NCBI RefSeq assembly: GCF_000750005.1
Contig: NZ_JPYA01000073.1
Location: 1 to 64,000, forward strand
Length of the DNA: 64,000 bases
Source of the DNA: Geobacillus icigianus
Lineage (GTDB): Bacteria; Bacillota; Bacilli; Bacillales; Anoxybacillaceae
Direction of reading: 5' to 3'
In this document: positions 6,264-28,737 of the stretch, one piece after another
How positions within the stretch are numbered: the stretch's first letter is position 1
How the letters are laid out: every line of letters starts with the position of its first letter
Program-made: the position numbers and the translations under genes
The notes under the pieces: model-generated
Databases searched by the model: none
What the model saw: only the letters and a program-made list of their open reading frames with translations
Told to the model about the DNA's origin: nothing

Positions 6264-6292
6264 AATGTATCAGGCTAAAGAAAAAAAGTCAA
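6264..6292 (-). promoter_or_regulatory. promoter of the MarR-MMPL operon
   Basis: On the minus strand TTGACT (6287-6292) is followed after 17 bases by TACATT (6264-6269), a SigA-type promoter. Confidence 0.65.
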
Positions 6293-6298
6293 TGAAAG

Positions 6299-6428
6299 AG
6301 GGCGATAAAAACCGCTGATTCCCTTCACTAATGGGAAAATGAGTGAAAAACAGCACCGATGCAACAAGGTTTTTCTACTTGAGAAATAAGATGGTAAAGC
6401 CATATCGACGATTCACTCCACAGCCTCA
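6299..6428 (-). repeat. degenerate copy of the ~140 bp inverted-repeat element
   Basis: Read on the minus strand it holds TTTCTCAAGTAGAAAAACC and TTGCATCGG, the internal signature of the copies near 9.1, 10.1-10.5 and 27.6 kb, followed by GCGGTTTTTATCGCC. The terminal CTAG arms are worn. Confidence 0.55.
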
Positions 6429-6456
6429 AAGAGAAGGGGAACGTTGGGAACCATTC

Positions 6457-8898: not shown

Positions 8899-8915
8899 TC
8901 AGACCCCCTCCTTCC

Positions 8916-8959
8916 GAAAAATGAACAGACTCCTGCCGCTTCCATTCGCAGCAGGAGTC
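8916..8959 (-). terminator. riboswitch-controlled terminator
   Basis: A nine-base-pair stem GACTCCTGC/GCAGGAGTC followed on the minus strand by TGTTCATTTTT. One arm is shared with the fluoride aptamer pseudoknot. Confidence 0.85.
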
Positions 8960-9012
8960 ATCAGCCGGAAACCGGCGGTTATGGCGAACTCCATCGCCTA
9001 TGAAGTTCAGTT
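8928..9012 (-). ncRNA. fluoride riboswitch (crcB motif) with terminator
   Basis: The minus strand carries GGCGATGGAGTTCGCC, then ATAACCGCC, then GGCTGATGACTCCTGC (core 8951-8998), the hallmark of the crcB RNA. The GGAGT loop can pair with ACTCC to form the pseudoknot. The same 3' strand, GCAGGAGTC on the plus strand at 8951-8959, also pairs with 8928-8936 to form a terminator stem followed by a U-run (plus-strand A-run 8917-8921). Fluoride should stabilise the aptamer and allow crcB transcription. Confidence 0.95.
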
Positions 9013-9019
9013 TTTCTTC

Positions 9020-9049
9020 ATTGTACCATATGTCTTGGTTCGCTGTGAA
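9020..9049 (-). promoter_or_regulatory. promoter of the crcB operon
   Basis: TTCACA (9044-9049) and TACAAT (9020-9025) on the minus strand, spacer 18; transcription would begin just before the riboswitch. Confidence 0.6.
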
Positions 9050-9056
9050 GACCGAC

Positions 9057-9194
9057 CTAGAAGGCTGGTGATTTACTCGCGCAACCGCTTCTTCGGATCG
9101 TTTCTCAAGTAGAAAAAATTTGCTGCATCAGCCTCTATGCTCACGCGTTCCATCGCCGATTAAGGCAAACAGCAGTTTTTCACCAACCTTCTAG
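9057..9194 (+). repeat. ~140 bp inverted-repeat element, copy 1
   Basis: Starts CTAGAAGGCTGGTGATTT and ends TTTTTCACCAACCTTCTAG, so the ends are near-perfect inverted repeats. Internal signature TTTCTCAAGTAGAAAAA then GCTGCATCAG. No open frame of note. Confidence 0.85.
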
Positions 9195-9321
9195 AAAGAT
9201 GAGGAGGAAAGCCAGCATGTTGCTTCCCCGCATCATTTCTCACATAGACCCTTGTAGCGTCGGTGCTGCTTTTCCCACCTTCCCGATCGATGGAGGGAAA
9301 CAGTAGGCTTTCCCGCGCTTT
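9191..9321 (+). repeat. degenerate element copy joined to copy 1
   Basis: Shares the CTAGAA junction with copy 1 and keeps ATTTCTCACATAGACCCTTG and a GTCGGTGCTGC block, but its right end is lost against the modA stop. Confidence 0.5.
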
Positions 9322-10113
9322 CTACCGGGCGCGGCGGAACCCGTGTTGTTCGAAAGTGTGGAGCGCCTGTTCACTCGTCAAATAAGAGTAAAACTCCCGT
9401 GCCTCCTTGAGATGTTTGCTCGTTTTGACCACACCGAGCGGGTAGACGATCGGACCGTGCATACGGCTTGGCACCGCGGCGGCGATGTTGACGTTGTCGG
9501 ACACGAGCGCATCCGTCCGATACACAAAGCCGGCGTCGACGTTGCCGGTTTCCACGTAGGTCAGCACTTGGCGCACGTCTTTCGCGTAGACGAGCTTCGG
9601 TTTGACTTGCTTCCACAGCCCAGCCTGCTCTAGCGTTTGTTTCGCGTACATGCCGGCCGGCACCGACTCCGGAATGCCAATCGCCACCCGTTTGGCGCGG
9701 ATCAGGTCACCGAGCGACCGAATCGCTTCTTCTCCTTGTTTTGGAACGATGAGCACCAGCTCGTTGGCGAGCACCGTTTTTTCGTGCTCGGAATCGATCA
9801 GCCCTTCTTGTTTCAGCTTCACAAACGGCTCGACCGCGGCGGAAAAAAAGAGATCGACCGGCGCCCCTTCAGAAATTTGTTTTTGCAAAGCGCCCGATGC
9901 GCCAAAATTATAGTGAATGCGGATGTTCGGGTGCTTTCGTTCAAACGCCGTTTTCGCTTCTCCCAGCGCTTCTTGCAGACTGGCCGCGGCCGAAACAATC
10001 AGCTCTGTTTGGTCCGCTGATTCCATTCGCTCGGCGCGTTCTTTTCGATCGCCGCCGCAGCCATACAAACCGAACAACAAAAACACCGCCATGAGCCATG
10101 CCATGTTTCGCAT
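9322..10113 (-). CDS. modA: molybdate ABC transporter substrate-binding lipoprotein ModA
   Basis: A 263-residue periplasmic-type binding protein. A lipobox (GLYGC) near residue 20 would anchor it to the membrane outer face. VSAAASLQEALGE, FGASGALQKQI and DVDLFFSAA-like segments form the oxyanion site typical of ModA/AlgQ-type proteins. ATG 10113 is chosen because AAGGGGG lies six bases upstream; ATG 10119 abuts it. Normally modB and modC follow; here only repeats and crcB follow, so its membrane partner must be encoded elsewhere or be lost. The divergent gene at 10659 is a matching regulator. Confidence 0.88.
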   Translation of the reverse strand: MRNMAWLMAVFLLFGLYGCGGDRKERAERMESADQTELIVSAAASLQEALGEAKTAFERKHPNIRIHYNFGASGALQKQISEGAPVDLFFSAAVEPFVKLKQEGLIDSEHEKTVLANELVLIVPKQGEEAIRSLGDLIRAKRVAIGIPESVPAGMYAKQTLEQAGLWKQVKPKLVYAKDVRQVLTYVETGNVDAGFVYRTDALVSDNVNIAAAVPSRMHGPIVYPLGVVKTSKHLKEAREFYSYLTSEQALHTFEQHGFRRAR

Positions 10114-10134
10114 TTGCATCCCCCTTATCTTCGC

Positions 10135-10274
10135 CTAGAAGGTTGGTGATGGAAGGAAACAGACCGCCTATCAGCCTTGTTTCTCAAATAGAAAAGCTCT
10201 GTCGCATCGGGAGCATCTTTCGCAAGCTCCCCCCATCGTCCAAATGGAACAACCGTTTTTCACCAGTCTTCTAG
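10135..10274 (+). repeat. ~140 bp inverted-repeat element, copy 2
   Basis: CTAGAAGGTTGGTGAT at the left, TTTTTCACCAGTCTTCTAG at the right, internal TTTCTCAAATAGAAAAGC and TGTCGCATCGGGAGC. Confidence 0.85.
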
Positions 10275-10409
10275 GAGGCTGGTGATTTAAGGGAGCAAGC
10301 CGCTTGTCAGGTCCATTCTTCCAATAGAAAAGCCTCGTCGCATCAGGAGCGCCTTTCAAACGATCCCCCATTGCTCAACAGAAACAACCGTTTTTTACCA
10401 GCCTTCTAG
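10271..10409 (+). repeat. ~140 bp inverted-repeat element, copy 3
   Basis: Shares its left CTAG with copy 2. Left end CTAGGAGGCTGGTGATTTA, right end TTTTACCAGCCTTCTAG, internal CCAATAGAAAAGCC and CGTCGCATCAGGAGC. Confidence 0.85.
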
Positions 10410-10548
10410 AAAGATCAGTGATTTCAGCAAAAAATCAGCGTAAACCTGGCCTTTCGCCAAAATTGAGAAACCTTGCAAAATCCACTTTATTTTCCTTACT
10501 AGAACGGCTGTTGGTTTCATCCCCCTCATCTTTCATCAACCTTCCAGA
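10406..10548 (+). repeat. ~140 bp inverted-repeat element, copy 4 (diverged)
   Basis: Shares CTAG with copy 3, begins CTAGAAAGATCAGTGATTT and ends TTTCATCAACCTTCCAG; the middle keeps GAGAAACCTTGCAAAATCC. Confidence 0.65.
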
Positions 10549-10658
10549 ACTATTATATCTAATTATATCTAATTATTATTAATGATAACTAGTTATAAAA
10601 GAAAACTTTTTTCACTTCCCTCTCTTTACGCTACAATAAAAGAAAGGGGGATTGTCGA

Positions 10659-11583
10659 ATGACGGAACCGCGGTCCTACACGATTGAAGAAATCGCTTCC
10701 TTACTAAAGGTGTCCAAACTAACGGTGTACGACTTAGTAAAAAAAAGGGAAATTGCCTGCCTTTCGTGTCGGGCGGCAAATGCGGGTCACCGCGGACGAT
10801 CTCGAGCGGTACATCGCCGGGCAAAAAGGGGAGGTAGCCGCCACTCCCCCTGCCGTCTTGCGTCCGACCGAAACCGCTCTTCGCCCTGTCATTATCAGCG
10901 GCCAAGATGTAGCGCTCGATTTGCTTGGGGCTCATCTCGACAAAAGCGGCCGTTATCGATCGCTTCGCACCTATACGAGCAGCCTCAACGGGTTAATCGC
11001 GCTGTACAAAGGGCAAGGGGACATCGTCAGCGTGCATTTATTTGACGGGGAAACAGGCGAGTACAACCGCCCGTATGTCGAAAAACTGCTGACTGGGCAT
11101 GCGTACATCATGGTGAACGTAATGCGCCGGCTCATTGGATTTTACGTGCAAAGAGGAAATCCGCGCGGCATTCAAACGTGGAGCGACTTGGGAAGGAACG
11201 ATGTCACGATCGTCAACCGAGAAAAAGGAGCGGGGGCGCGTGTGCTTCTAGATGAACAGCTGCGCCGGCATGGGCTATCTCCTTCCGCTGTCCACGGGTA
11301 TGAACGGGAAGAAACGAGCCACGTAAGCGTGGCTTCCGCAGTGGCGGCGGGCTTGGCGGATGTTGGCATCGGCACGGAAAAAGTGGCACGGATGGGCGGC
11401 GTTGAGTTTATTCCGCTCGTGAATGAGCAATATGATGTTGTCATGCTGCGGACCGCCGAGAACGAGCCGCTCATCGCCGCTGTCTTGAACGTGCTTCGCT
11501 CCGATTCGTTCCGCACCGAACTCGAGGCGCTTGGCGGATACGATGTGTCGCAAACCGGGCGCATCATCGCCGAGCGCAGCTGA
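10659..11583 (+). pseudogene. yvgK: excisionase-type HTH plus molybdate-type binding domain regulator, frame broken at A8
   Basis: The first frame from ATG 10659 encodes a MerR/excisionase helix-turn-helix (YTIEEIASLLKVSKLTVYDL). After an A8 run at 10739-10746 the sense frame shifts. With seven A the text reads VKKGKLPAFRVGRQMRV, exactly the usual motif, and continues as a periplasmic-binding-like domain (GRYRSLRTYTSS near the start, NREKGAGARVLLD, LADVGIGTEKVA) to 11583, 307 residues in total. B. subtilis YvgK has this layout beside modA and is thought to sense molybdate. It is divergent from modA here. The gene is either a pseudogene, read by slippage on A8, or a base-call error. Confidence 0.75.
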
Positions 11584-15312: not shown

Positions 15313-15588
15313 TAAAAAAACCCGCCCCAGTAAGGGACGAGTTGTTGCTCGCGGTACCACCCTTGTTAACAGCACCAATGAAGACGCGCTGTTCGCTTCC
15401 TTGCCATAACGGCCAAAAGCCGGACCACCTTTACATCCCGCGTTGGGATGGTCCCGGTGTCAACTCGGGAGGTGAACTTCACTTGCGTCGGCCATAAAAA
15501 CGCTCCCAGTCTATGGCGTTTTCTCCCTGGATGGCGAGCAGCAAGCTACTTTTCTCCGTCATCGTTGTTATCGGTATGGGAAATGTCG
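15313..15588 (-). ncRNA. T-box leader of pheST
   Basis: The minus strand has the T-box sequence GGGTGGTACCGCG (15349-15361 region) followed by a terminator (ACTCGTCCC paired with GGGGCGGGT, then TTTTTTT near 15313-15320). Further upstream are several stem-loops and a possible UUC specifier at 15474-15476. Uncharged tRNA-Phe would be sensed and would prevent termination. Confidence 0.93.
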
Positions 15589-23820: not shown

Positions 23821-24024
23821 GCCACCTCCAAGGTTTTTTCCGACTGGCTTGTTTGCCGGCAGAATCCCGCTCCTAACGAAAAAGCGCGGATGCATAAAGC
23901 ACCCGCGCACGACGTTCGAAGAAACCATTGGCGAACCGTAACAACCTGCCAACAGCCGCCCAGGCGCCGGTCAGGTGAGAAGCGGGCGCTTCTGCTTTCG
24001 TTACAAACAAGCAATCATTCCACT
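23821..24024 (-). ncRNA. L20 leader of the infC-rpmI-rplT operon
   Basis: A ~200 base leader between a strong promoter and infC. The minus strand folds into long helices (GAAGCGCCCGCTTCTCACCTG and later GGCGCCTGGGCGGCTG areas) and ends with a terminator, CGCGGGTG/CATCCGCG followed by CTTTTTCG (23878-23912). This matches the L20-binding attenuator of Bacillales: excess L20 favours termination. Confidence 0.85.
23876..23912 (-). terminator. attenuator hairpin in the L20 leader
   Basis: GCGCGGGTGC pairs with GCATCCGCGC around CTTTAT, followed on the minus strand by TTTTTC. Confidence 0.85.
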
Positions 24025-26302: not shown

Positions 26303-26565
26303 AAAATAAAAAAACTCCTCCCTCAAAAAGGGACGAGTTTTCGTCGTGGTTCCACCCTTCTTCCCATGGCAAACCAACGCCATGGCTCAACACCGATAAC
26401 GGCCGTCCGCCGGCGGCAACTACTGGGCGTAGCGTTCGCTGCCGCAGCTCTGAGGGGGTAAGCGCACTTTTCGTGTTAGGAAGGTTCCAGCCGCTGCCTT
26501 CCCTCTCTGGAAACCGTAAAAATGCGCCCATGTCCTCGTCATCGCTTTGTTTTCCTCTTATCTAT
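26303..26565 (-). ncRNA. T-box leader of thrS
   Basis: The minus strand has GGGTGGAACCACG (about 26343-26355), followed by a terminator formed by ACTCGTCCC and GGGAGGAGT with TTTTTTT. A likely ACC threonine specifier lies at 26483-26485 in the first stem region. Uncharged tRNA-Thr would favour read-through. Confidence 0.93.
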
Positions 26566-27570: not shown

Positions 27571-27710
27571 CTAGGGGGCGGGTGATTTAGTGCAAAAACG
27601 ACGGATTCCACTCATTTCTCAATTAGAAAAACCTTGCAGAATCCGCTTTCTCTTCTGAATGAAAATGCCGCCGATCGGGAGTTGACAGTGGTTTTTCACC
27701 AGCCTTCTAG
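27571..27710 (+). repeat. ~140 bp inverted-repeat element, copy 5
   Basis: Begins CTAGGGGGCGGGTGATTTA and ends TTTTTCACCAGCCTTCTAG; internal TTTCTCAATTAGAAAAACC then TTGCAGAATCCGC. Same length as copies near 9-10 kb. Confidence 0.85.
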
Positions 27711-27720
27711 GCGCGGCCAG

Positions 27721-27755
27721 ACAAAACATCGGCGTCCTGTTTTCAGGAGCCGATG
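27721..27755 (-). terminator. terminator of dnaI
   Basis: CATCGGC plus TCCTG pairs with CAGGA plus GCCGATG with one mismatch around TTTT; the minus strand continues TTTTGTC. Confidence 0.7.
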
Positions 27756-27795
27756 GCAAAGAGCGGGCAAGGGGCGCGAGAATGCGGTGCGTGCG

Positions 27796-28737
27796 TTAGC
27801 CGTTTTGCTCGCGACGGTTTGGTCCGGTCAGTTCAATCGGGTACGCCAAGTAGCGAATTCGTTCCATGATGCGCGCCGCCTTCACCTTTTCCTCTTCACC
27901 GCGCTGGGAATAAGTCAAATGATGGGCCAGCTGCTGCAAATTAAAATTCGACGTAAAAAAGGTCGGCAAGTTTTCAAACATCCGGTATTGCAAAATCGGC
28001 CCGAGCACGTCATCGCGCACCCAGCTCGACATCGCCTCAGCGCCAAGGTCATCGAGCATCAAAATCGGCACTTTTTTCACGTAATCGAGCTTTTCGTTCA
28101 TCGTCTGGTCTTGCAGCGAATGCTTCATCTCGCGAAACAGCTCCGGCACATAGACGATGAGCGACGCGATGTTTCGTTTGGCAAGCTCATTGGCGATCGC
28201 CGCAAGCAAGTACGTTTTGCCGACGCCGAACGACCCATGTAAATACAGACCTTTCATTTTTTTTCCCGGCTCGTATTCGGCCACAAACCGCTCGGCAAAT
28301 CCAATCGCTTTGATCCGGCCGTCATCGCTGAGGTCGACATCGGAGAGCGACGCGCGCAAAATTTCACGCGGCATAAACATGCTTTGGATAAGCGACTCTT
28401 GGCGCTTCCGTTCATCATGCTGCACCTTTTTCGGGCAGCGGTCATACTCAATCTCTATTCGGCCGCTGCTGATCACCAAATTCGGCTGATACCCTGGCAA
28501 CATGTTTGGACATCGCTCCAACCCCGGGCATTGGCGGCAATGCCCGTTCTGCTCGATAAACTCGTACAGCTTCATGAGGCTGCGGTCGACCGCTTCCGCA
28601 GACAGCTGCGGTTCGTGCGCCTGCAAAAACGGCTGCACGTCCGGATGCGACAAAATATAGCGCTTCATTTGTTCGTAGCGCTGCTTAAAGCGTTGATTGC
28701 CAAGCAGCCGCTGCAATAATTGATTGACTCGTTCCAT
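27796..28737 (-). CDS. dnaI: primosomal helicase loader DnaI
   Basis: A 313-residue AAA+ protein. The N-terminal domain (1-135) has the zinc-binding cysteines HCRQCPGLERCPNM and DRCPKK. The AAA+ domain has Walker A GSFGVGKTY near residue 172, Walker B ILMLDDLGAEAMS and a sensor FTSNFN. It loads the replicative helicase DnaC onto DNA together with DnaB and DnaD. It follows dnaB by 11 bases in one operon. Confidence 0.97.
   Translation of the reverse strand: MERVNQLLQRLLGNQRFKQRYEQMKRYILSHPDVQPFLQAHEPQLSAEAVDRSLMKLYEFIEQNGHCRQCPGLERCPNMLPGYQPNLVISSGRIEIEYDRCPKKVQHDERKRQESLIQSMFMPREILRASLSDVDLSDDGRIKAIGFAERFVAEYEPGKKMKGLYLHGSFGVGKTYLLAAIANELAKRNIASLIVYVPELFREMKHSLQDQTMNEKLDYVKKVPILMLDDLGAEAMSSWVRDDVLGPILQYRMFENLPTFFTSNFNLQQLAHHLTYSQRGEEEKVKAARIMERIRYLAYPIELTGPNRREQNG

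Follow-up and report, generated by a model that had tools for sequence, protein, structure and literature searches.

The window, a stretch of 64,000 nucleotides from a contig of Geobacillus icigianus, carries between its genes several sequences of about 140 bp that have similar ends and often lie end to end. The initial annotation took them for a dispersed family of inverted-repeat elements, either MITEs or transcribed structured repeats, and proposed that their arrays grow by end-to-end insertion or by tandem duplication. The locus raises the question of what these repeats are, what moves them and how the arrays arise.

The repeats in the window and in the genome

A search of the window for the end sequence CTAGAAGGCTGGTGA, with up to three mismatches allowed, gave 11 occurrences where 0.52 would be expected, and no shuffle out of 100 gave as many as 11. 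All seven copies of the initial annotation were found (Table 1), and the covariance model gave E-values of 1e-16 or better for those at 9057-9194, 10271-10409, 27571-27710 and 6307-6417 (minus strand). For the copy at 10135-10274 the model lists the minus strand only (22.8 bits), and the plus-strand score comes from nhmmer. The earlier division into five good and two worn copies held except at 10406-10548, a copy that had been called good and is the most decayed of the seven, with CCAG as its right 4-mer (10544-10547). The copy placed at 6299-6428 is worn, as described, but it is inverted and scores above the other two worn copies. All window copies lie outside the ORFs taken as genes (modA, crcB, dnaI and others), in line with their description as non-coding and intergenic; an ORF called mechanically at 27634-28242 (plus) covers part of the copy at 27571, but is antisense to dnaI (27796-28737, minus). 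The right 4-mer CTAC (9322-9325) of the copy at 9191-9325 overlaps the modA stop codon (9322-9324).

Table 1 Copies of the repeat in the window, with the central block of one of them
Feature	Position	Strand	Score and remarks
Full-length copy, CTAG at both ends	9057..9194	+	covariance model 128.8 bits
Decayed copy, shares CTAG with copy 9057-9194	9191..9325	+	9199-9325, 38.7 bits, E 1.7e-7
Full-length copy, first in three-copy array	10135..10274	+	nhmmer 101.7 bits
Full-length copy, CTAG common with both neighbours	10271..10409	+	covariance model 127 bits
Decayed copy, third of the array	10406..10547	+	10411-10543, 32.8 bits, E 4.5e-6
Solitary full-length copy	27571..27710	+	covariance model 114.7 bits
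Worn copy, inverted orientation, terminal 4-mers lost	6291..6431	-	6307-6417, 76.9 bits
Central conserved block TTTCTCAAGTAGAAAA of copy 9057-9194	9101..9116	+	

The family is real and larger than the window suggested. A search of the whole draft genome (3,456,327 bp in 206 contigs) for the end at up to two mismatches gave 189 + 211 = 400 matches, against 1 + 2 for a reversed-pattern control. A genome scan with the covariance model, which was built on 43 copies, returned at least 150 matches, all 150 scored candidates matching. With nhmmer, the 437,037 bases fetched around copies of the same genome, a sample that gives no basis for density, yielded 249 distinct hits, of which 214 are close to full length. 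The counts below use the 217 copies of this set with usable ends, worn ones such as 6291-6431 of the window included. Only two core sequences recur among them (3 and 2 times), so that at most 3 of the 217 are possibly one place counted twice. Together the copies span 29,886 bp, at least about 0.86% of the genome.

The length is not strictly fixed at 138-143 bp, as had been stated: it ranges from 113 to 148 bp with a mode of 139 bp, 185 of the 217 copies falling within 134-142 bp. The repeats are therefore too short for a transposase gene and carry none; their inverted ends defined the search. Read from the left, a copy consists of CTAG, an inverted repeat, a variable stretch, the central block TTTCTCAAnTAGAAAA, a TTGTTGCATC-like stretch, a second variable stretch, TTTTTCACCAGCCTT and CTAG. 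The 11 inner positions of the two ends pair at 8.2 of 11 on average, and in 173 of the 217 copies the fixed positions of the central block show at most one mismatch. Average-linkage clustering cut at 65% identity yielded six subfamilies of at least 6 copies (64, 56, 46, 22, 10 and 6), with 13 copies left in smaller groups. Compared with one another, the four large groups differ little in the central block (mean difference 0.19) and in both inverted repeats (0.21), but much more in the stretches at 19-45 and at 75-118 (0.48-0.60). Inside the groups, too, the central block is the best conserved part (0.116 vs 0.16-0.26 elsewhere). A relative at 95% identity or more exists for 41 of the 217 copies.

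Five longer forms of 157-265 bp also carry the central block. Three of them (L028:1501-1705, L013:2551-2759 and L031:1635-1899) combine the left part of the GTGCAAAATAC subfamily with one or two extra modules of about 70 bp (ATTTTCATCCCCGGGTGGAGGG...). The same module occurs in L009, L191 and L243 with no MITE ends nearby, and looks like a separate small repeat family. Another form, of 207 bp (L023:1512-1718), has two partial central blocks and is perhaps a fusion of two decayed copies that lost their shared end.

Insertion sites and a transposase-bearing partner

Both flanks read CTAG in 104 of the 217 copies. Among the other 113, identical 4-mers stand on both sides in 35 (15 CTAA, 13 TTAG, 3 ATAG and 4 others), whereas 4.5 were expected on average and 14 was the maximum in 2000 shuffles, which indicates that insertion duplicates 4 bp. 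The two 4-mers differ in the remaining 78 of the 113, and these copies call for later mutation, imprecise end-snapping or recombination. Occupied sites were also compared with empty ones. Seven non-CTAG sites were sought in 13 relatives, and the five with junction-spanning loci were examined: 27 of 28 relative loci lacked the element while spanning its junction, and at four of the five sites the 4-mer stood once, as expected, in at least one relative (TTAG, 1 of 1; CTAA, 2 of 2, 6 of 13 and 1 of 3), the fifth showing it in none of 8 spanning relatives. As for the window itself, the array at 10135-10548 is absent at four of five named Geobacillus loci (L092, L093, L094 and L096; L095 is unaligned there), none of the four having a clean CTAG in its place. 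The pair at 9057-9325 is likewise absent at four of the five (L092-L095), and L096 has a MITE-like sequence of its own at that position. The 4-bp duplications and the empty sites in relatives are those of DNA transposition.

Targeting of stop codons was considered and dropped. YTAR contains TAA or TAG, and duplication would restore the stop; outer ends coincide with the stop of an open frame of at least 100 codons in 18 of 229 scorable cases (7.9%; 233 ends with NTAR less 4 at stretch edges), against a background of 6.5% for CTAG, 3.0% for TTAG and 7.8% for CTAA, with no clear enrichment.

A transposase with the same ends was found through two relatives, in which these ends occur as an inverted pair about 1.55 kb apart. 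The DNA between them encodes a transposase of 493 or 487 amino acids with matches to DDE_Tnp_1, DUF772 and DDE_Tnp_1_6 of Pfam, all above the cut-offs. Its best NCBIfam model is IS1182 (E 6e-68), at 229.9 bits under a curated cut-off of 270. The genome of the window holds an open 493-residue copy (C26), a copy interrupted by a TAG (C200) and fragments (C142, C149); across the genus a tblastn match was present in 13 of 14 genomes, over at least 470 of the 493 residues in seven and in pieces in the others.

The two ends are distinct from each other both in the partner element (GGTGAAAAAGTAC and GGTGAATTAATGGGGCATAG) and in the MITE consensus (GGTGAAAAA and GGTGATTTAATGGAGCATA). In the copy L060 of the partner, the left end of the MITE (29 bp with the target 4-mer) corresponds to the downstream end of the element in 26 of 29 bases, and the right end (19 bp) to the upstream end in 18 of 19; without the target CTAG the figures are 22 of 25 and 14 of 15. 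The corresponding match scores, 46 and 34, exceed the shuffle maxima of 31 and 30, although for the genome's own IS copies the right-end match is within chance (L077, 32 vs a shuffle maximum of 35; L067, 30 vs 31). Inverted repeats, end asymmetry and the type of 4-bp target are thus common to the MITE and the partner (L060, L061, L063, L077), whereas the transposase belongs to the element only and the central block to the MITE only: the central 80 bp matched three element copies no better than the best shuffles did, and the block was absent at up to four mismatches from five copies of the element. Both the MITE and the partner sit mostly at YTAR, above all CTAG. The partner is flanked by TTAG on both sides twice, by CTAT on both sides once and by CTAG on both sides in others; L064 and L065 have CTAG on one side and CTAT on the other, and the open copy in the genome of the window has TTAG and CTAA, with no clean duplication. 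Short target duplication at TA-centred sites is usual in the IS1182 family.

Taken with the duplications and the empty sites, an element that bears a transposase and has the same ends makes it very probable, as far as sequence comparison can tell, that the repeats are non-autonomous DNA transposons (MITEs) mobilised by the IS1182-like DDE transposase of this ~1.55 kb element of the same genus. The transposase would bind the ends of the MITE, cut it out and insert it into a target opened by a staggered cut, whose repair would duplicate 4 bp. Since the target thereby ends up on either side of each inserted copy, any copy already in place would offer two fresh and harmless targets, and new copies would settle end to end, sharing a CTAG. 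The central ~80 bp is foreign to the known autonomous element, and its constrained block may be a second site for protein binding or for the promotion of transposition. An extended form of this model, in which the block is a captured cis-site, recognised by the transposase or by a host factor, that renders the MITE a better substrate than its parent and drove its amplification, with an immunity-like exclusion of alike neighbours and a head-to-tail bias, appears rather unlikely at present.

We see little chance that the MITEs belong to a transposase of another family with TA-centred targets and that the ends of the IS1182-like element are merely similar. CTAG and YTAR targets are not unique to one family, as the IS5, IS630 and IS701 types also use TA-centred sites, and the IS1182 model matched under its cut-off. 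However, the two distinguishable ends of the MITE match those of this very element, the match extending past the inverted repeat on one side, and both duplicate 4 bp at the same type of site.

RNA structure and the growth of arrays

Would the repeats instead be structured RNAs or REP-type sequences, kept for a function as leader, terminator or small RNA and spread by other means? Single copies do fold into a long terminal stem, and the central block is a strongly conserved imperfect inverted repeat. Yet the arms of an element showed no covariation: 8.17 Watson-Crick pairs of 11 were counted, against 8.22 when arms were shuffled within subfamilies, and 90% of 2000 such shuffles reached the observed pairing. 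A first impression of compensatory changes among subfamilies was gone on counting. Across the 217 copies, a scan for internal helices came up with nothing better than short runs of A/T, whose summed excess pairing did not exceed 0.25, and RNAalifold on 43 copies predicted terminal-arm pairs only, with a covariation term of -0.47 and a change on both sides in one of eight pairs. Against Rfam, the copies in the window had no match at E up to 1. The suggestion of a structured repeat is not borne out by these results, and a functional RNA or REP-type repeat, which would also leave the 4-bp duplications and empty sites of DNA transposition to be accounted for, seems very improbable. REP/REPIN sequences with a RAYT were rejected on definition: these are inserted with no target duplication and have a Y1 transposase partner (RAYT), whereas 4-bp duplications are present here.

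The 217 copies form 145 arrays, of which 89 are single, 40 double and 16 triple. The earlier observation that neighbours share the CTAG was confirmed beyond the window, 58 of the 72 neighbour pairs overlapping by exactly the shared 4-mer. Neighbours are mostly head to tail (same orientation in 52 of 72, P 0.0002), even though the target is mostly palindromic. In three relatives, two of them single-contig, at least 17 pairs sharing exactly 4 bases were counted by eye, of which 12 have the same orientation and 5 opposite ones; arrays and orientation bias are therefore not peculiar to one draft assembly.

The common CTAG and the prevailing orientation would also suit arrays formed by tandem duplication of one inserted copy. 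Neighbours, however, resemble each other less than randomly paired copies do (mean identity 0.594 vs 0.622): no pair of the 72 reaches 80% identity, where 6.1 were expected by permutation, and only 5 are of the same subfamily against 13.7 expected (P 0.002). At 75% identity or more there is one pair among the 52 of the same orientation (6.6 expected) and none among the 20 of opposite orientation (3.1 expected). Since neighbours are unlike each other, the arrays grew by separate insertions; end-to-end insertion thus stands, and for the 72 pairs examined tandem duplication is scarcely credible. The avoidance of similar neighbours could have any of several sources: recombination that removes near-identical neighbours, their collapse in the draft assembly, waves of subfamilies that followed one another, or a genuine rule of exclusion.

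A simple model gave 45 end-to-end insertions (95% range 35-56) with 825 free sites and 70 with 450, and 72 were seen; a special preference for end-to-end insertion beyond chance is possible. About 820 CTAG sites outside long ORFs were estimated from 2.1 CTAG per kb in the 11.3% outside ORFs, figures that come from 39 stretches plus the window, which is counted twice.

Distribution, known relatives and gene surroundings

At up to one mismatch the end occurs in 20 of 41 genomes of the family Anoxybacillaceae. All 14 genomes of the genus of the window have it, with 2 to 204 ends each, and 6 of 27 genomes of other genera have 1 to 5 ends. Single matches in other genera may be due to chance, since a reversed control gives single hits in two genomes. 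When the model was applied with stricter filters to 299 genomes drawn from the order, five matched, four of them of the genus; the fifth, of another genus in the same family, has a single copy with ATAG on both sides. With 204 ends, the genome of the window is far ahead of the next one (77), which points to an amplification burst in its lineage. Copy number does not follow the present transposase: one genome (G024) has 6 ends and no transposase match, and in another (G019) an open copy goes with just 2 ends. The copy at 10271-10409 had no match in phage or plasmid collections at E 1e-5.

RUP, the Correia-type MITEs and bcr1 of the Bacillus cereus group are intergenic repeats of roughly 100-160 bp in high copy number, with other partners and targets. 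The Geobacillus MITE resembles them, as they are generally described, in intergenic location, size and copy number.

A closer parallel is found in Methanosarcina acetivorans, where IS1182-family MITEs of 160 and 169 bp tied to ISMac2 are listed in 14 and 7 copies (PMC3852290). Size and an IS1182-family partner are similar, and the last number of one row, 4, is taken here as the direct repeat (PMC3852290). The host there is an archaeon, and at least 217 copies are present here; the word 'tandem' is absent from the text of that paper (PMC3852290). For Geobacillus, IS1182-family transposases are listed in a genome paper (PMC9693769), and a transposition study of G. kaustophilus names other families, its main text containing neither 'MITE' nor 'IS1182' (PMC8024623). 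No prior description of this Geobacillus MITE family was found in the literature searched, whose coverage leaves most subscription papers outside. IS1182-linked MITEs are already known from an archaeon, and so far as these searches reach the very successful Geobacillus family is a new one. It explains an intergenic repeat that takes up a measurable share of the genome, and it offers, in a thermophile, hundreds of probable substrates for a single transposase, a set that falls into subfamilies whose positions are partly fixed and partly variable. Such a thermophilic system would let end recognition, target choice and array growth be tested.

Within the window, the copies of the array at 10135-10547 lie between the modA start (10119; TIGR01256) and a divergent neighbour (10659/10753) that resembles a molybdopterin biosynthesis protein under the cut-off of that model; judged by position, the array may be part of the modA leader. 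The pair at 9057-9325 begins 8 bases from a promoter-like site (9049-9020, minus) that precedes a fluoride riboswitch and crcB. From their place, the copies before modA and beside the riboswitch gene are candidates for regulatory effects. A consensus scan of 8900-10700 found three promoter-like sites (1.0 expected), none within copies, and four terminator-like sites (2.5 expected), one of them inside copy 10135 (10177-10161, minus). An outward promoter in the MITE, proposed from TTGAGA on the minus strand of the central block, was rejected: the second hexamer is not conserved across subfamilies.

The fluoride riboswitch (Rfam RF01734, E 1.6e-15) lies at 8945-9007 (minus), upstream of two crcB-like ORFs. 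Also on the minus strand of the window are a T-box leader at 15330-15571, upstream of pheT on the same strand, a second one at 26326-26551, just upstream of thrS and 0.6 bits under the gathering score, and an L20 leader at 23872-24003.
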